Assembly: GCA_023382535.1 (NCBI GenBank)
Contig: JAHDWA010000038.1
Coordinates: forward strand, 1 to 64,000
Direction: 5' to 3'
Length of the DNA: 64,000 nt
Source of the DNA: Anaerolineae bacterium
Lineage (GTDB): Bacteria; Chloroflexota; Anaerolineae; 4572-78; J111
The notes below the pieces were generated by a model. That model was not told the origin of the DNA, did not search any database, and was given only the letters and a program-made list of their open reading frames with translations. The position numbers and the translations under genes were made by a program. The stretch's first letter is position 1; every line of letters starts with the position of its first letter. Below, piece by piece: positions 23,484-61,724 of the stretch.

Positions 23484-23561
23484 TTGGCCTTGCCAGGCCC
23501 CTAAAAGTTGATTAAGATAATGACCACCTCACGAAAATGATAAATTCGGAGAATTTTGCGC

Positions 23562-24665
23562 ATGTTACAACAAATGGAAGTAGGTCATTCGCAGCCTTAC
23601 ACCTTCTCGATTGATACCCCCCCGGAGCCGTTTCAACTGCTGGATCAGGCGGGCAATCTGCTGGTAGACACGCCGCCTCTTAGCGATGAAGAGACGCTCA
23701 AAGGGCTGCGGGCTATTTTGTTGGGCCGCCGCTTTGATGAGTTGTGTATCAACTTGCAGCGGCGCGGTTTGATGGTCACTTTTGCCCCCGGTATTGGCCA
23801 GGAAGCCTGTACGGTTGGCAGCGTGATGGCCCTTGATAGCCGGCGAGATTGGTTTGTGCCGCAGTACCGCGAGGCTGCCGGGCAGTTATTACACGGCTCG
23901 CCTCTGGTCAATAATTTTCTGTGGCATATGGGCAGCCCGCTTGGCTTCTACATTCCCGAAGGGGTGCGCATGCTGCCGTTTCAAGCCGGTGTGGCCGGCC
24001 AGATTTCTCACGCGGTTGGATTGGCCTGGGGATCGAAATTGCAGGGTAAAACGGATGTGGCAGTCGTTCACTTTGGCGATGGAGCCAGTTCGCAGGGTGA
24101 TTTCTACGAGCCGATGAACCTGGCCGGGGTGGTCAAGGCGCCGGTTATTTTCTTCTGCCAGAATAACTTTTGGGCCATCTCCTTGTCCAGAAACCTCCAA
24201 ACTGCCGCCCAAACGATTGCTCAAAAGGCGGTTGCCGCCGGTATCCCTGGCGTCCAGGTGGATGGCAACGATCTTTTTGCGATCTACGAAGCGACCTGCC
24301 AGGCGGTCGAGCGGGCCAGGCGCGGCGAGGGTCCCACCCTGATCGAAGGCGTGACCTACCGCCTGGGCATCCACACCACCGCCGACGATTCCTCGCGCTA
24401 TGAGCCGGTCGAGTACAAGGAGGAGTGGCGCGATAAAGACCCGGTGCTGCGCTTGCAGCGCTACCTGGAGCGGCGGGGCAAGTGGAACGCCGATATCGCC
24501 CAGAAAATGGAGGCCGAAATTAAAGCCGAGCTGGATGCGGCCTGGGAAGAGGCCCAACGTGTCCCCATCTCGCGTATGGACGAGGGCCTGACCCACGTGT
24601 TTGCCGAGATGACCCCGCGCCTGCGCCAACAGTACGACGAGTTGAAGGGAGACGCCCATGCCTGA
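23562..24665 (+). CDS. 2-oxoacid dehydrogenase E1 component, alpha subunit
   Basis: The 367-residue protein is the alpha subunit of a pyruvate or branched-chain 2-oxoacid dehydrogenase E1. It has the thiamine diphosphate motif starting GDGASSQGDFYEP and ending FFCQNNFWA, and the family-typical QYREAAGQL and YRLGIHTTADDSSRYEP. The longer N-terminus and YRLGIHTTADD favour the branched-chain or acetoin group rather than a classical pyruvate enzyme, but sequence reading alone cannot decide. The ATG at 23562, 10 bp after GGAG, is preferred over a TTG at 23556. It overlaps the E1 beta gene by 8 bp. Confidence 0.93.
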   Translation: MLQQMEVGHSQPYTFSIDTPPEPFQLLDQAGNLLVDTPPLSDEETLKGLRAILLGRRFDELCINLQRRGLMVTFAPGIGQEACTVGSVMALDSRRDWFVPQYREAAGQLLHGSPLVNNFLWHMGSPLGFYIPEGVRMLPFQAGVAGQISHAVGLAWGSKLQGKTDVAVVHFGDGASSQGDFYEPMNLAGVVKAPVIFFCQNNFWAISLSRNLQTAAQTIAQKAVAAGIPGVQVDGNDLFAIYEATCQAVERARRGEGPTLIEGVTYRLGIHTTADDSSRYEPVEYKEEWRDKDPVLRLQRYLERRGKWNADIAQKMEAEIKAELDAAWEEAQRVPISRMDEGLTHVFAEMTPRLRQQYDELKGDAHA

Positions 24666-25641
24666 GCTGACCATTGTCGAAGCGGTGCGTGATACCCTGG
24701 CCTACGAACTGGAGCGCGACGCCCGGGTCATGGTCCTGGGCGAAGATGTCGGCAAAACCGGCGGCGTCTTCCGGGCCACGGATGGTCTGTTCGAACGGTT
24801 TGGCCGGGATCGGGTGGTAGATATGCCCCTGGCCGAAAGCGCCATTATCGGCTCGGCTATCGGCCTGGCTATTTCCGGGCTGGTCCCCGTGGCCGAGATT
24901 CAATTTATGGGCTTCACCCATAACGCTTTCAATCAGATTGCCGAGCAGCTCGCCCGCATGCGCTACCGTTCCTGGGGGAGCCTGCACCTGCCGGTCACGA
25001 TTCGCACGCCCTATGGCGGCGGGGTGCGCGCCCCGGAGATGCACTCCGACTCCTTTGTGGCCCACTTTGCCCACTGCCCCGGCCTCAAACTGGTCGCCCC
25101 GGCCACGCCCGCCGATGCCAAGGGGCTGCTTCTGTCGGCCATCCGCGATCCCGACCCGGTAATGTTCCTGGAACCCCTGCGCGGCTACCGCCTCATCCGG
25201 GGCGACGTGCCGGACGGCGATTATACCGTACCGTTGGGTAGAGCCAGGATAGTGCGGGAGGGTAGCGACTGTACCGTTATCGCCTGGAGCGCGGCCGTGG
25301 AAATTGCCAAGCAGGCCGCCGATGATGCGGCCGGCAAAGGTGTTTCGGTCGAAGTGATTGACCTGCGCACCTTAGTTCCGTTAGATATGGACACGCTGCG
25401 GGTGTCGGTGATGAAAACAGGCCGGGCAGTGGTTATTGACGAGGCTTCCTTCACCGGCAGCTTTGCGGCGGAGGTGCTGACCTCCCTGGCTGAGGACGAG
25501 GACATTTTCTTCTCCCTCAAAGGTCCGGTCACCCGTGTCTGCGGGCCGGATGCGCCCTACCCGGTGCAAATGCTGGAAGAGGATTACTTGATTAACCGCA
25601 AGCGCGTGCTCAAGGCAATCTTGAAAAGTGTAGAGAGCTGA
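24658..25641 (+). CDS. 2-oxoacid dehydrogenase E1 component, beta subunit
   Basis: The 327-residue protein matches E1 beta: LGEDVGKTGGVFRATDGL, the pyrimidine-side Glu in MPLAESAIIGSAIGLA, the loop VPVAEIQFMGF, and RTPYGGGVRAPEMHSDS. It pairs with E1 alpha as a heterotetramer that decarboxylates a 2-oxoacid and passes the acyl group to lipoyl-E2. The E2 gene starts 5 bp after the stop. Confidence 0.95.
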   Translation: MPELTIVEAVRDTLAYELERDARVMVLGEDVGKTGGVFRATDGLFERFGRDRVVDMPLAESAIIGSAIGLAISGLVPVAEIQFMGFTHNAFNQIAEQLARMRYRSWGSLHLPVTIRTPYGGGVRAPEMHSDSFVAHFAHCPGLKLVAPATPADAKGLLLSAIRDPDPVMFLEPLRGYRLIRGDVPDGDYTVPLGRARIVREGSDCTVIAWSAAVEIAKQAADDAAGKGVSVEVIDLRTLVPLDMDTLRVSVMKTGRAVVIDEASFTGSFAAEVLTSLAEDEDIFFSLKGPVTRVCGPDAPYPVQMLEEDYLINRKRVLKAILKSVES

Positions 25642-25646
25642 CCATC

Positions 25647-26906
25647 ATGGCAAGATTTGAATTCAAAATGCCCGATGTGGGCGAGGGCCTGGCTGACGTC
25701 GAAGTGATCGCCTGGTTTGTCAAGGTGGGCGATCGGGTTCAGGAAAACCAGCCTATCGCCGATGTGGAAACCGACAAGGCTATCGTCACTATGCCTGCCC
25801 CCGCCACCGGCCGGGTGATCGAACTGGCGGCCAAAGAAGGAGAGCGCGTTAAGGTCGGCGCATTTTTGCTGGCGATTGAGACCGGCGGCGAGGAGGCGAA
25901 GGACCGAGGAGGCGAACAGGCGGAGACGCGACGTGAAGCAGATGATGGCGTCCAACCTTCCAACCTTCCAACCCTCCAACCTTCCAATCCTCCCTCCTCC
26001 CCTGTTCTCGCCTCGCCGGTAGCCCGCAAACTGGCCCAGGATTTGGGTATTGCGTTGGAAGAAGTCACCGGAACGGGACCAAAAGGCCGGATCAACGTCG
26101 AGGATGTGCAGCGCCATGCCGAGATGCTGCAAGCAGCCCAAGCGTCCGCGGTGGCAGCACCGGCGCTTGCCCCGGCTAAACCAGCCGAACCGGAGGCAGG
26201 GGCGGGGGACGAGCGTATCCCCGTGCGCGGCCTGCGCCGGCGCATCGCCGAGGCCCTGACCGAAACGGCGCGGACGGTGCCCCAGGTCGTCGGTTTCCAT
26301 GAATTCGATGCCGAGGTGTTAGTCAGAGAACGGGCTTACTTGCAGCGCCACGCCGAGACCGTGGGAGTGCGTCTAACCTATCTGCCCTTCGTTATCACAG
26401 CCTGCGTTGAAGCCTTAAAACAGCACCCCTATCTCAACGCCTGTTACATGGACGGCGATGATCCCGCCATTTTGCTCAAACGAAGCTATAATATCGGTAT
26501 TGCGACCGCCACCGACGACGGGCTGGTCGTGCCGGTGCTGCACGGAGCAGACCAGTTTGACTTGTTTGAGCTGGCCCGCCGGGCCGATGAATTGGTCGCG
26601 GCGGCGCGGGAGCGACGCACGACACCCAAAGACATGCAGCACGGCACATTTACCATAACCAATGTGGGGCAAATGGGCGGCTGGTTCGGCACGTCTATCC
26701 TCCGCGCTCCCGAAGCGGCGATTCTGGGCGTTGGCAAGATTGAGGACAAGGCGGTGGTCCGCAACGGCCAAATTGTCGCCCGGCCCATTCTGCCCCTCTC
26801 GCTGACCTTCGATCACCGGGTGATTGATGGCCAGGAGGCGCTGGCCTTTATTCAAACCCTGCGCCGCTACCTGGAGGAAGACCCGCGCAGCCTGTCGCCG
26901 AGATAA
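25647..26906 (+). CDS. Dihydrolipoamide acyltransferase (E2) with repeat-derived linker
   Basis: The 419-residue protein has one lipoyl domain (residues 1-75, VETDKAIVTMPAP with the lipoyl Lys near 43), a peripheral-subunit-binding domain (about 130-165, ASPVARKLAQDLGIALEEVTG), and a catalytic domain ending with SLTFDHRVIDGQEA, which carries the active His and Asp. Between lipoyl and binding domains lies a linker of about 45 residues encoded by GAGGCGAAG words and then by TCCAACCTTCCAACC words (PSNLPTLQPSNPP), the same words found in intergenic hairpins. The acyl transfer reaction fits the E1 genes upstream. No E3 gene is present in the window. Confidence 0.94.
   Translation: MARFEFKMPDVGEGLADVEVIAWFVKVGDRVQENQPIADVETDKAIVTMPAPATGRVIELAAKEGERVKVGAFLLAIETGGEEAKDRGGEQAETRREADDGVQPSNLPTLQPSNPPSSPVLASPVARKLAQDLGIALEEVTGTGPKGRINVEDVQRHAEMLQAAQASAVAAPALAPAKPAEPEAGAGDERIPVRGLRRRIAEALTETARTVPQVVGFHEFDAEVLVRERAYLQRHAETVGVRLTYLPFVITACVEALKQHPYLNACYMDGDDPAILLKRSYNIGIATATDDGLVVPVLHGADQFDLFELARRADELVAAARERRTTPKDMQHGTFTITNVGQMGGWFGTSILRAPEAAILGVGKIEDKAVVRNGQIVARPILPLSLTFDHRVIDGQEALAFIQTLRRYLEEDPRSLSPR
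25888..26010. repeat. Intergenic-type stutter element inside the E2 coding region
   Basis: GGCGAGGAGGCGAAGGACCGAGGAGG words (left) and TTCCAACCTTCC then CCTGTTCTCGCCTCGCC words (right) could pair imperfectly. The reading frame is kept across the element and encodes the interdomain linker. Confidence 0.7.
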
Positions 26907-49166: not shown

Positions 49167-49574
49167 ATGGCCCGTGTCTCTTATACCACGCTGGGCAGCA
49201 CCCCCTTCCGGCGGCTGGTCGGCCATAACCCGGACCTGCTGGCAGCGTTCCAACAGATTGATAAAACCATCACCCAACAGTTGTCGCTGCCGGCTGAGCT
49301 GCGGGAGGAAGTTCGCCGCCATCTGGCTTACGAGAACGGCTGCCATTACTGAATGTCGTTTGGCCCTCCGGCGGAGCGCCTCACCGACGAACGCACCATT
49401 CTGGCTGTTGGCCTGGCTCATATGGCTAAAAAAGACCCGCACAGCATCCATCCTGACTCCTGGGCGGAATTGAAGCAGCATTTCTCCGAGCAGGAATTGA
49501 TGGAATTGTGTTATGTGATCGGCCATTACAACGGGATGCAGATGGTGAATGTGTTATTGGATACGGACCCGTAA
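49167..49574 (+). CDS. AhpD-like (carboxymuconolactone decarboxylase family) selenoprotein, CxxU
   Basis: The reading frame is open from an ATG at 49167, with AAGGAG before it, to TAA at 49572-49574, except for one TGA at 49350-49352. Reading that codon as selenocysteine gives 135 residues with the AhpD-like motif NGCHYU (C59, U62) and an ending LCYVIGHYNGMQ as in this family. The two halves are in frame, so no frameshift is needed. Nine bases after the TGA a hairpin GGC-C-CTCC-GGC-GGAG-C-GCC (49362-49380) has an apical GGC loop 17 nt downstream, within the known bacterial SECIS spacing. It should be a thiol/selenol peroxidase-type or redox protein. Confidence 0.85.
49362..49380 (+). promoter_or_regulatory. 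Candidate bacterial SECIS hairpin
   Basis: The stem GGC(c)CTCC pairs with GGAG(c)GCC around the loop GGC, immediately downstream of the in-frame TGA. The loop begins with G as expected for SelB binding. Confidence 0.65.
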
Positions 49575-57028: not shown

Positions 57029-57114
57029 ATTGATACCTGTTTGCACTTGTTTGCTGGACCGGGTTGATTAGAATAGAGTGGCTTTTTGAGTACTTTTGTA
57101 GGAGGAAGCGATAA

Positions 57115-57369
57115 ATGCCAAAACAAGTGACTCTTTTTTCCACCAATACGGAGCACGTCAGCCCCCGCTGACAGGAGTGCTGCCGCGTGAGAGAGTTTCT
57201 CTCCGATCATAAGGTTGAGTTTATCGAACGAAATATCCGCCGTGACCCAGAGGCCAGGCAGTATGTTATTAATACTCTGGGGGCCGAAGCCGTGCCTTTA
57301 ACCATGATAGACGAGGAAATGGTTATTGGCTTCGATCGGGACAGGTTGGAGGCTTTGCTGAACCTATAA
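57115..57369 (+). CDS. Glutaredoxin-like selenoprotein with UxxC motif
   Basis: AGGAGGAAG at 57100-57108 is well placed before an ATG at 57115. The frame reads MPKQVTLFSTNTEHVSPR, then TGA (57169-57171), then QECCRVREFLSDHKVEF and on to TAA, 84 residues in all if TGA is selenocysteine (U19, C22, C23). VTLFST, REFLSDHKVEF and NTLGAEAVPLTMID match a glutaredoxin fold, and the TGA falls where its first redox cysteine belongs, giving UQEC. A hairpin GAGAG-AGTTT-CTCTC (57189-57203) has its loop about 22 nt downstream, in SECIS range. The next gene starts 18 bp after the stop. Confidence 0.8.
57189..57203 (+). promoter_or_regulatory. Candidate bacterial SECIS hairpin
   Basis: GAGAG (57189-57193) and CTCTC (57199-57203) form a short stem around AGTTT, with G at loop position two. 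It lies within the coding sequence just after the TGA. Confidence 0.5.
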
Positions 57370-57381
57370 GAGGAATGGAAT

Positions 57382-57603
57382 TTGCTGATGGAAGCTGAGA
57401 ACGACCTTTTGCCTCAACTGGCCCAGGAGTTAGTCGCCCTCTTTGAGGATTTAGCCAATGAGCGGCTGATCAACGCTAAAAAGCTGGAAAACGCGCTGCC
57501 AGGGAGCTACCCCTATGGCGAGGGCATGCACGATGGCCTGCGTTATGCAGCGGCAGGCCTGGAGAGCATCTTAAAACGGCATGGCCTGCTGAAGTCGTCA
57601 TAA
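57382..57603 (+). CDS. Small acidic helical protein
   Basis: The 73-residue product begins at TTG (or at ATG 57388) 13 bp after the selenoprotein gene. It reads QELVALFEDLANERLINAKKLEN-like throughout: an amphipathic, acidic, probably alpha-helical protein. I do not recognise a family. It is likely co-transcribed with the selenoprotein. Confidence 0.65.
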   Translation: MLMEAENDLLPQLAQELVALFEDLANERLINAKKLENALPGSYPYGEGMHDGLRYAAAGLESILKRHGLLKSS

Positions 57604-57790: not shown

Positions 57791-59635
57791 ATGAAAAAAA
57801 TAGCTCGCGGAATTAGTGTATTCTTGTTTTTGGCGCTGCTGTTAGCCGCCATGCCGCTGGCAACCCTGGCTCAAGAGGAAGTTGTCTGTGAGGCAGATGC
57901 CATTGTCCAGTCGGAAGACTCCCTGTCCACCCTGGCCGACAAGTACTATGGCAACATTTTTGCCTACCCGGTGATTGTGGACGCAACCAACGCCAAGGCG
58001 GCTACTGATAGCAGTTACGCCACGATAGATGATCCAAACGTCATTGAAACCGGCTCGAAACTATGTATCCCGCCGGGAGAAGTGGCCCAGCAAATGCTCA
58101 ACGAGTCGGTCTTTACGGCGGTGGGGGATGAGCAGGCCGCGACCACGCTGGTCATCGGCATTACCGAAGACACCGTTTCGCTGGACCCTGGCCGGGGTTA
58201 TGAAGTGCATGCCGGCACAGTCAACCGCGCTGTCTACGAAACCCTGGTTACATTCCCCCCCGATAACGTTGACGAGGTTATCCCCGGCGCTGCCGAGAGC
58301 TGGACCATCTCTGAGGACGGCCTGACCTATACCTTTACAATGGCCCAGGGGCACAAATTCAGCACGGGCCGGACGGTTACGGCTAATGATGCGGCGTTCA
58401 GCATCAACCGCATGAAAAATATCAAGGGCAACCCGTCCTTCCTGGCCGATAATATCGCCAGCGTTGAGGCTGCCGACGAGCAAACCCTGGTTATCAAATT
58501 GTCCGCCCCCGACCCTTCGCTGCTGGCCCGGCTGGTCTTCCCCGCTTTTAGCGTGATTGACAGCGAAGAGGCCAAAGCTCATGGGGCGACCGATGCCGCC
58601 GACGCCGCGGAAACGGACACGGCTGAAGAATGGCTCAACCAAAATTCCATTGGCAGCGGACCTTACATGTACGAAAAGTGGGAGCCGCTGGTGGAGGTCA
58701 TCCTGGTCCGGAACCCCAACTACGCCGGCGAACCGGCGCCAATTGACCGGGTCATCTATCGCACGATCTCGACCGCGGCCGCCCAAAAGCTGGCCCTCGA
58801 AGCCGGCGATCTGGACATTGCCCTGGATATCAGCGCCGACCAGGTGCCGAGCCTGGAAAGCAACGCCAATCTTACGCTTTATAAAGGCCAGGGTGATCAG
58901 ATCTTCTTCCTGCTCATGAACATGGACCCGGCGATTGGCGGCCCCATGACCCAGGATACGGTTCAGGACGCGGTCCGGCTGGCGGTAGATACTGACGGTA
59001 TCCGCCAGTTAATGGGCGGCTCGGCGGCCACGCCGGTCAATATCCTGCCCGTTCACTGGCCGTTTGCCCTAGATCAATCGCAGCGAATTCAGCGGAATGT
59101 TGACGCGGCCAAGGCGAAGCTGGCGGAAGCGGGCTTTGCCGATGGCCTGACGGTGGAGTTGGAATACCCCGATTTCACCTCGGGCGATGTGGCTATAGGC
59201 ACGCTGGCGCAGAAGGTTCAGGCTGACCTGGCCGAAGCCGGCATTAATGTGGTGCTCAAGCCGGGCGACCTGCAAGTGACGTTGGAACGCTATCGCAACG
59301 GCCAGGAGAATTTTGGGCTGTGGTTATGGAGTCCCGACTTCATTGACCCGATTGACCGCATTGCTTTTACCCCTGGCGGTAAGGTCGGTCTCCGGGCTAA
59401 CTGGACGGAGGAGCGGGCCAGCCAGGAGTTGAATGAGGCGGTGGCTCGGGCCAAAGTGGTGACTGATCGGGCTGAGCGTGAGCAGGCTTTTGCCGATGTG
59501 CAGCGGATCATGCTCGATGAGAGCGCCTTTGCTTTCCTCGGTCAAAGCGGCGTGCAGGTAGCGTACCGGACTGGCCTGGAAGGATTTGTCTACAATGCTA
59601 TGTGGCGGGTCAATCCGTACACGATGAGCAAATAA
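57791..59635 (+). CDS. Peptide/nickel-type (family 5) ABC binding protein with N-terminal LysM-like domain
   Basis: The 614-residue protein starts with a Sec signal (MKKIARGISVFLFLALLLAA, cleavage near LAQ) and then a LysM-like unit of about 70 residues (VQSEDSLSTLADKYYGN to ETGSKLCIPPG). The rest is a family 5 solute-binding protein with LDPGRGYEVHAG, NDAAFSINRMK and GSGPYMYEKW. LysM binds peptidoglycan or related glycans, so the fusion could hold the binding protein near the wall. It is followed by two permeases, but ATPase genes are not in the window. AGGAG precedes the ATG. Confidence 0.93.
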   Translation: MKKIARGISVFLFLALLLAAMPLATLAQEEVVCEADAIVQSEDSLSTLADKYYGNIFAYPVIVDATNAKAATDSSYATIDDPNVIETGSKLCIPPGEVAQQMLNESVFTAVGDEQAATTLVIGITEDTVSLDPGRGYEVHAGTVNRAVYETLVTFPPDNVDEVIPGAAESWTISEDGLTYTFTMAQGHKFSTGRTVTANDAAFSINRMKNIKGNPSFLADNIASVEAADEQTLVIKLSAPDPSLLARLVFPAFSVIDSEEAKAHGATDAADAAETDTAEEWLNQNSIGSGPYMYEKWEPLVEVILVRNPNYAGEPAPIDRVIYRTISTAAAQKLALEAGDLDIALDISADQVPSLESNANLTLYKGQGDQIFFLLMNMDPAIGGPMTQDTVQDAVRLAVDTDGIRQLMGGSAATPVNILPVHWPFALDQSQRIQRNVDAAKAKLAEAGFADGLTVELEYPDFTSGDVAIGTLAQKVQADLAEAGINVVLKPGDLQVTLERYRNGQENFGLWLWSPDFIDPIDRIAFTPGGKVGLRANWTEERASQELNEAVARAKVVTDRAEREQAFADVQRIMLDESAFAFLGQSGVQVAYRTGLEGFVYNAMWRVNPYTMSK

Positions 59636-59678
59636 CCCGGGTTTTTAAGCTGCTGTAGTCAGGCAGTAACCTCTCGTA

Positions 59679-59729
59679 GTGATGCGTGAAACGTGATAAG
59701 ATGTAAATCCCTCACATTTCACGCATCAC
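59679..59729. repeat. Perfect 13-bp hairpin, 'GTGATGCGTGAAA' class
   Basis: GTGATGCGTGAAA (59679-59691) and TTTCACGCATCAC (59717-59729), followed by GTTTTACTTTTT, lie between the binding protein and permease genes. It could lower permease expression relative to binding protein. Confidence 0.82.
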
Positions 59730-59741
59730 GTTTTACTTTTT

Positions 59742-60758
59742 ATGCAACGTTTTGTTCTACGCCGTTTAGTTTTGCTGATACCCTTACTCGTCGGCATCAC
59801 TTTGGTTGCCTTTATCTTATCCCATGCCGTCCCCTCTGATCCTGTCAACGCGGCCCTGGGCCAGAGTGCTGTGGCTGACCCGGAAATTGTCGCTGCTTTC
59901 AGAGCCAAGTGGGGTTTGGACCAACCCGTCCATATTCAGTACTTTACCTATCTCCGCAATATGCTCAGGGGCGACTTGGGCGTGTCTATTGGCACACACC
60001 GGCCTGTTATGGAGGATTTGGGGCGCTACATGCCGGCGACAGTGGAGTTGTCCACCGCCTCGATCATCCTGGCGGTGCTGATCGGGGTACCCCTCGGGGT
60101 TGTCTCGGCGGTGCGGCGCAATACCTGGTTAGACCAGGTGAGCCGGGTCCTGTCGCTGATTGGCGTCTCGGCCCCGGTCTTCTGGCTGGCCTTGTTAGGG
60201 TTATTTCTGTTCTACTCCCGCTTAAATTGGCTGCCCGGCCCCGGCCGGCTGCACATCGGGACCAGACCACCCCCGCCGGTGACCGGCTTATTCACGCTAG
60301 ACGCGCTCCTGGCCGGCGATGTTGAGCTGTTTATCAATGCTTTCAGCCATCTGATTTTACCCAGCATTGTTCTCGCCAGTTACAGTATGGGCCTGATCAC
60401 GCGGGTCACGCGCTCGGCCATGTTAGATGTGCTGAGCCAGGACTATATCCGTACTGCCCGTTCCAAAGGTCTGCACGAGGGCTGGGTGGTGGGACGTCAT
60501 GCCCTGTCCAACGCCTTGATCCCTACGGTCACGGTTTTGGGGTTGTCCTACGGCAACCTGCTTACCGGCACCGTGCTGACCGAAACCATCTTCTCCTGGC
60601 CGGGCATCGGTCAGTACGCTTACCAGGCCTCGGTTTCGTTGGATTTCCCGGCGATTATGGGCGTCACCATGCTGATCGCCTTTGTTTTTATTGCCGTGAA
60701 TCTGGTGGTTGATGTCACCTACGTCTTTTTAGACCCCCGCCTGCGGGAGGCGCAGTGA
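59742..60758 (+). CDS. Dipeptide/oligopeptide-type ABC permease (DppB family)
   Basis: The 338-residue membrane protein has the DppB pattern: VPSDPVNAALG near the start, about six transmembrane helices, and the permease loop YIRTARSKGLHEGWVVGRHA. It pairs with the DppC-type permease 39 bp later. The start ATG at 59742 lies in TTTTTATG just after a hairpin. Confidence 0.95.
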   Translation: MQRFVLRRLVLLIPLLVGITLVAFILSHAVPSDPVNAALGQSAVADPEIVAAFRAKWGLDQPVHIQYFTYLRNMLRGDLGVSIGTHRPVMEDLGRYMPATVELSTASIILAVLIGVPLGVVSAVRRNTWLDQVSRVLSLIGVSAPVFWLALLGLFLFYSRLNWLPGPGRLHIGTRPPPPVTGLFTLDALLAGDVELFINAFSHLILPSIVLASYSMGLITRVTRSAMLDVLSQDYIRTARSKGLHEGWVVGRHALSNALIPTVTVLGLSYGNLLTGTVLTETIFSWPGIGQYAYQASVSLDFPAIMGVTMLIAFVFIAVNLVVDVTYVFLDPRLREAQ

Positions 60759-60797
60759 TCCAGACTAAATTAACTCGGGGGAGAAGGTAATTTTGAC

Positions 60798-61724
60798 GTG
60801 CAGTCAACGACGCAACCCTCCATGGTGAATACCTCGGCAGCCCTCGCTGCTCCGGCAACGGGACTGAATGTTCGATCCCGGCGCAGCGGGTTGAGGGCGG
60901 CTGTCTATTTTCTGCGGCGAAATCACCTGGCCCTGGTCGGCTTGCTGTTGGTTCTGTTTTGGATTGTCATTACCCTGGCCGCGCCGCTGGTAGCGCCTTA
61001 CGATCCGTATAAACAGGCGATCCCGGAGCGTTTGCAGCCGCCGAGTGCGGCGCATTGGGGTGGTACAGACCAACTGGGGCGGGATGTGCTCAGCCGGGTT
61101 ATTTATGGCGGGCGGATCAGCTTGCCGGCAGCTCTGGCCGTGGTCGTGGCGGCGGGGATTGTCGGGACGGTGGTGGGAGCTTTGGCCGGCTTTTTGGGGG
61201 GCGTATGGGATGAAGTGCTGATGCGCATCACCGACATTTTTATGGCCTTCCCCGGAATTATCCTGTCTATGGCTGTCGCCGCTGCTTTAGGCCCCAATAT
61301 CAGTAACGCCGTTGTCGCCATCGTCGTCGTGTTGTGGCCCAACTATGCCCGTATTGTGCGCGGCCTGGTGTTGACGGTCAAAGAGAACGAGTACGTCCTG
61401 GCCGGCCGAGCGGTTGGGGTAACAGAGAGGCGGCTGCTGTGGCGGACAATTTTACCCAACTGTTTGGCTCCGGGCCTGGTGATGGCGACCCTGGATTTGG
61501 GCAATGCCGTACTCTCTTTCTCCGGGCTGAGCTTTTTGGGGCTTGGGCCGGAACCCAGCACCCCCGAATGGGGCCGCATGGTCTCCGATGGCATTGCCTT
61601 CTTCGACCAGTGGTGGATCAGCGCCTGCCCCGGTCTGGCGATTTTTACTGTCGTCATGGCCTTCAATTTTGTCGGGGACGGGCTGCGCGACGCCCTCGAC
61701 CCGCGCCTGCGGCGGCAGCTCTAA
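60798..61724 (+). CDS. Dipeptide/oligopeptide-type ABC permease (DppC family)
   Basis: The 308-residue membrane protein has the DppC features: N-terminal tail, LVAPYDPYKQAIPERLQ, GTDQLGRDVLSRVIYGGRIS, and the EAA loop NEYVLAGRAVGVTERRLLWR. It begins at GTG 60798, or at ATG 60822. Together with the binding protein it imports peptides, glycans or nickel; ATPases must be encoded elsewhere. Confidence 0.95.
   Translation: MQSTTQPSMVNTSAALAAPATGLNVRSRRSGLRAAVYFLRRNHLALVGLLLVLFWIVITLAAPLVAPYDPYKQAIPERLQPPSAAHWGGTDQLGRDVLSRVIYGGRISLPAALAVVVAAGIVGTVVGALAGFLGGVWDEVLMRITDIFMAFPGIILSMAVAAALGPNISNAVVAIVVVLWPNYARIVRGLVLTVKENEYVLAGRAVGVTERRLLWRTILPNCLAPGLVMATLDLGNAVLSFSGLSFLGLGPEPSTPEWGRMVSDGIAFFDQWWISACPGLAIFTVVMAFNFVGDGLRDALDPRLRRQL

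Follow-up and report, generated by a model that had tools for sequence, protein, structure and literature searches.

A putative selenocysteine-containing glutaredoxin of 84 residues is encoded at positions 57115-57369 on the forward strand of the 64,000-nucleotide stretch of DNA analysed here (the window); the individual genes and sequence elements located below lie on the same strand. The gene is preceded by a ribosome-binding site (AGGAGGAAG, 57100-57108). Its frame opens with the ATG at 57115, runs for eighteen codons to an in-frame TGA (57169-57171), continues for sixty-five codons and closes with a TAA ending at 57369, and reading of the sequence confirmed it as it had been proposed in the initial annotation, along with the cysteines three and four residues after the TGA. 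The TGA corresponds to residue 19 (Sec19) of a UQECC motif and, as had also been proposed, aligns with the first active-site cysteine of glutaredoxins. It is followed by Cys22 (57178), the expected resolving cysteine, and Cys23 (57181), which together occupy 57178-57183.

The window is G+C-rich, and an ATG with an open frame on either side of a TGA is a common pattern in it: of its 1964 TGA triplets (both strands, all frames), 32 have an in-frame ATG at least fifteen codons upstream and at least sixty open codons downstream. It is thus homology and conservation, rather than the open frame, that make the case for the gene. Judged by its sequence, 57115-57369 stands above chance in matching PF00462 (E 1.1e-13; 51.6 bits, the gathering cut-off being 22.9; residues 5-70 span the full profile) and in being conserved across genomes. 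The structure model of the protein (pLDDT 91.7) has glutaredoxins as its best matches in the PDB, in keeping with a thioredoxin-like fold.

A scan of genome contigs identified two loci with the TGA at the same position, in the Anaerolineales bacterium isolates H5_CFX5 (L001) and H5_CFX7 (L002), whose products show 83% and 93% identity, respectively, to the window protein. A third relative (L012, genome G015) has 44% identity and belongs to the same subfamily; two further members (L056 in G656 and L057 in G644) were found by a search of the phylum with the small partner protein described below. In all six members read as DNA, the window included, the TGA is at the same place with coding conserved on both sides of it, and the active site takes one of two forms, UQECC and UTECC, with the ECC kept throughout. 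Since the same TGA occurs in independent genomes, an error in the base call is excluded. All six members also carry about six residues before the active site which are absent from the other TGA and Cys glutaredoxins compared. This is the long first loop from which a distinct subfamily had been suspected; a 33-row tree separates the six from all other rows by a branch supported at 97/91 and recovered in 98% of 200 bootstrap trees.

In the class to which the window belongs, glutaredoxin matches at E <= 1e-6 were obtained in 146 of 396 genomes. Homologues with either codon at the active-site position were found: among the 30 loci listed from this search the site is a TGA in twenty-four and a cysteine in six, and no other stop was seen. 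The six Cys loci are all wider relatives from outside the UxECC subfamily, and no subfamily member with cysteine at the site was found among 48 database relatives or among the six members read as DNA; the subfamily appears to be fixed for selenocysteine. The class also holds short TGA glutaredoxins with a TQPGU(L/M)FC motif (L018, L014, L027 and others in both groups) and longer YTTPTUPYC proteins which run on into another domain, TGA and Cys forms being mixed in the latter group. Scanning of viral contigs with the glutaredoxin returned five IMG/VR contigs (L003-L007) with redoxin-like stretches at 34% identity, while plasmid searches found nothing.

Eighteen bases past the glutaredoxin stop lies a gene (57388-57603) for a protein of 71 amino acids with two predicted helices. 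This downstream gene, which is fused to the glutaredoxin elsewhere, was overlooked in the earlier reading. AlphaFold models its product as two long helices (pLDDT 86.5), for which a PDB fold search gave 54 matches at E <= 10 and none at E <= 0.001. No Pfam or NCBIfam model matched at E <= 0.001, and a scan of viral contigs found no relative. The conserved residues include His-Asp-Gly and a Lys; the protein is without cysteine, and so a docking role would be likelier than a redox role. Database searches returned 164 relatives at E <= 0.001, among them a record named as an Actinobacteria MAG (P0159).

Were selenocysteine correctly assigned, the small protein could still be unrelated to the glutaredoxin. 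In the window, as in L001 and L002, the two genes are separate, though adjoining, and such an order could reflect hitch-hiking; they share a frame in L002 and in the window, where the TAA stands between them, and differ in frame in L001. The evidence on neighbours also covers just 28 sequences read, against the 164 database matches; these were drawn from the partner search (with identifiers among the 120 matches listed) and from the wider glutaredoxin search. Even so, an unrelated partner is unlikely. A profile of the protein matched three of 396 genomes of the class and three of 400 of the phylum, in five different genomes, and in all five a TGA-containing UxECC glutaredoxin was present, adjacent to the partner in two and fused to it in frame in three (L012, L056 and L057, where the partner domain lies behind the glutaredoxin and the Sec TGA is the sole in-frame stop). 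Among the sequences read, P0038 and P0046 are truncated models of such fusions, and P0113, P0120 and P0135 have a redoxin end in front of the partner domain.

A rival reading of the glutaredoxin gene itself takes the TGA for a true stop, with the eighteen codons before it as a leader and the protein as a truncated glutaredoxin of 60 residues starting at the GTG at 57187. Database gene models agree with it. When the protein was searched with cysteine in place of selenocysteine, all thirty close matches (the window's own frame included) were 59-64 residues long and started six codons past the TGA; in a wider search, for which four aligned members served as the query, 47 of 48 proteins start after the TGA site. 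However, termination here would, according to the structure model, deprive the fold of its first strand and its active site, and it would leave unexplained why a ribosome-binding site precedes 57115 and why TGA is the only stop seen at the site among the 30 loci listed. Furthermore, the eighteen codons upstream of the TGA are conserved as protein: twelve are identical, five synonymous and one changed against L002, and eleven, five and two against L001. Conservation does not end at the TGA, contrary to what would be expected had all homologues stopped there. The fourteen codons after it are all identical to those of L002, and eleven are identical, three synonymous and none changed against L001; for the remaining codons the corresponding numbers are 36, 9 and 6 (L002) and 30, 9 and 12 (L001). 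True termination is accordingly very improbable.

A hairpin, a candidate bacterial SECIS element, is located just downstream of the TGA at 57187-57205. In the window its stem (GAGAG/CTCTC, loop AGTTT) comprises five pairs at 57189-57203, positions 57187-57188 and 57204-57205 being unpaired, though paired in relatives. Bacterial SECIS elements are described in the part of the source consulted (PMC1088965) as commonly having a small apical loop that contains a G, and the stem-loop of the window gene has such a loop (AGUUU). The hairpin claimed in the initial annotation (57169-57205) exists and is conserved in relatives, but its own folding energy does not set it apart: that of 57169-57210 is ordinary (z -0.13), and 89 of 200 shuffled sequences fold as well. 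Support for the hairpin is comparative. In an alignment of 27 TGA sequences, 94.2% of 189 stem cells are paired (columns 19-25 with 31-37) and nine are changed on both sides, and none of 500 shuffles reached the pairing, the count of cells changed on both sides or the covariation score; among six Cys relatives 59.5% of 42 stem cells are paired. RNAalifold, unaided, arrived at this stem too, with six pairs and -5.01 kcal/mol. By other measures shuffles came closer: 22 of 500 reached the three pairs changed on both sides, and 155 of 500 reached the five further pair types, of which a slide of +2 gives six. The most variable pair is AU in twenty-one sequences and GC in six; it sets the UxECC clade apart from the other sequences, and its variation may therefore represent one event; at another stem pair, L029 and L039 have changed from UA to CG. 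The residues encoded at the hairpin, REFLS, are conserved as protein too. Rfam returned nothing on the window at its gathering thresholds.

Components of the selenocysteine machinery on which the initial reading depended, namely SelA, SelB and tRNA-Sec, are present in close relatives of the window. The wing domain of SelB was identified in both genomes concerned (G001 and G002) and in one of fourteen control genomes (E. coli), and SelA in three of three relatives and two of the fourteen controls. A tRNA-Sec scored over the Rfam cut-off in three of three relatives and also in five of the fourteen controls; as this model is unspecific, the best matches were checked with ARAGORN, which called tRNA-SeC with the anticodon tca at all three loci. 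SelB (TIGR00475) is over its cut-off in 49 of 62 genomes and, being so widespread in the group, implies that selenocysteine use alone does not single out the TGA glutaredoxin genes. As a separator of TGA from non-TGA genomes it was weak and was set aside (24 of the 26 genomes in which a TGA glutaredoxin was read, against 25 of the 36 in which none was noted; Fisher p 0.055). The two TGA-glutaredoxin genomes below the cut-off are G001, where SelB is in pieces, and G026.

Another rival reading has the TGA translated as an amino acid other than selenocysteine, through recoding to tryptophan or glycine or through plain suppression. The sole one of the 48 database proteins that spans the site (P0044, a protein record only) has glycine there (TPTGQECC), and this could be a TGA translated under a code in which TGA means glycine. 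The residue found at the site in all six non-TGA loci (among the 30 listed) is cysteine, however, the neighbouring genes follow the ordinary code, and the hairpin, the tRNA-Sec with its TCA anticodon and the SelA and SelB of relatives all argue for selenocysteine; we consider any other amino acid to be less probable still than termination. That the in-frame stop is a fresh nonsense mutation in a decaying pseudogene is scarcely credible when the same TGA is kept in six of six members diverged to about 40% identity and each of the three fused genes has that one TGA and no other stop.

We therefore favour, with a probability of roughly 0.93 for the reading as a whole, a UxxC selenoglutaredoxin in which UGA19 would be read as selenocysteine and which the small partner would serve in docking. 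This reading is based on the conservation of the TGA and its flanks, the alignment of selenocysteine with cysteine, the comparative hairpin, the selenocysteine machinery of relatives and the fusion with the partner; the presence of selenocysteine at the TGA is well supported. SelB, with Sec-tRNA, would decode UGA19 as selenocysteine, aided by the hairpin just downstream. Sec19 would then be the attacking residue of the UxxC site and Cys22 would resolve the selenenylsulfide, while the two-helix protein, adjacent or fused, may dock the redoxin to a partner enzyme or donor.

The glutaredoxin-partner pair is located within a large catabolic cluster with several solute-binding proteins (36000-63700), whose order is kept in G001 and G002. 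The cluster encodes ABC transporters, solute-binding proteins, SDR enzymes, luciferase-like proteins, a B12-binding protein, MeaB, an M24 peptidase, an amidohydrolase, carboxylase subunits and enzymes of the proline-racemase and ornithine-cyclodeaminase families. Directly downstream of the pair are genes of a peptide/nickel-type ABC transporter (57791-61724; an SBP_bac_5 binding protein and two permeases), in an order also kept in G001 and G002; the gene order around the pair is common to these two genomes and, in part, to G015. A link to ectoine breakdown, suggested by gene content, was dropped because its only support was an EhuA match below cut-off.

A second TGA-containing gene was identified at 49167-49574 and is a selenoprotein candidate of the CxxU type (motif ENGCHYU, TGA at 49350). 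Its proposal as a second redox-site TGA gene in the initial annotation has held up, as both the TGA and the frame are kept in the two relatives where the gene was found (G001 and G002). No family scored over its cut-off for this protein (best NCBIfam match, 15.3 bits), which by resemblance we take to be AhpD-like. Two selenoproteins, the second a candidate, would thus fall within one cluster of about 10 kb.

Further upstream in the window are the E1alpha, E1beta and E2 genes of a 2-oxoacid dehydrogenase (23556-26906). In G644 and G656, homologues of all three lie within about 100 bases after the fused glutaredoxin gene (identity to the window proteins of 55-56% for E1alpha, 66-68% for E1beta and 44-45% for E2), and in G644 the fused gene is itself preceded by proline-racemase, luciferase-like and ornithine-cyclodeaminase-like genes. 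No E1/E2 homologues were found in the 37 kb of G015 compared, and the stretches of G001 and G002 compared end short of the E1/E2 region. A more far-reaching proposal, which we put forward as doubtful, is that the UxECC glutaredoxin and its two-helix domain constitute an undescribed Sec-only family serving one conserved catabolic cluster (2-oxoacid dehydrogenase E1/E2, proline-racemase, ornithine-cyclodeaminase-like enzymes, luciferase-like monooxygenases and ABC transporters), for example in electron exchange with the lipoyl domain of E2, the helical domain acting as the dock. That the lipoyl-bearing E2 (25647-26906 in the window) might be the substrate is a conjecture drawn from how the genes are ordered in two genomes.

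The gene models of 47 of the 48 database relatives were cut behind the active site by gene callers, and as a result this enzyme is invisible in annotation. The fusion provides a direct handle on the small protein family with its many database matches, and likewise on a conserved catabolic cluster of Chloroflexota-type bacteria.

Comparison with known systems shows the window protein to be distant from the UXX-star (seleno)proteins (NF041212, NF041114, NF041211 and NF047338), which are glutaredoxin-like selenoproteins; it differs from them in keeping a resolving cysteine at U+3. Membership was rejected by score, with 28.3 bits against 66 for NF041212, 18 against 100 for NF041211 and 12.7 against 72 for NF041114. 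The best NCBIfam model is that of the YruB-family glutaredoxin-like proteins (TIGR02196), but at 63.1 bits the protein falls below the cut-off of 88.55 and is not assigned to that family; the match, which starts at profile position 6, does not extend to the extra loop. A UxxC glutaredoxin (PF00462) is among the verified selenoproteins of a 2026 prokaryotic inventory, as given in the portion of it consulted, and the window protein shares its Pfam family and UxxC motif class (PMC13188914). No glutaredoxin with an extra domain or a UxECC motif is among the entries of the inventory's table examined (PMC13188914), nor was a description of the UxECC subfamily or the fused domain found in the open-licence PMC literature.

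The closest solved relative by sequence is cGrx1 of Clostridium oremlandii (PDB 7c10, 7c12 and 7c13; E 4.8e-17), and 7c10 is also the best PDB fold match to the modelled window protein (46% identity, TM 0.80). The sections of its description consulted present cGrx1 as a native selenoprotein with a U(or C)PXC motif, whose substrate for reduction is thought to be a selenoprotein MsrA (PMC7642778). Sec19 aligns with the first active-site cysteine of cGrx1. As UxxC selenoglutaredoxins are known from cGrx1, the window protein is not new in kind. It differs in having UQECC where cGrx1 has UPxC, in the six residues added after the first strand and ahead of the active site, and in its helical partner or fused domain; by these extra residues, the UxECC motif, the helical partner and the lack of any Cys form found, the subfamily looks to be a new one among the selenoglutaredoxins.
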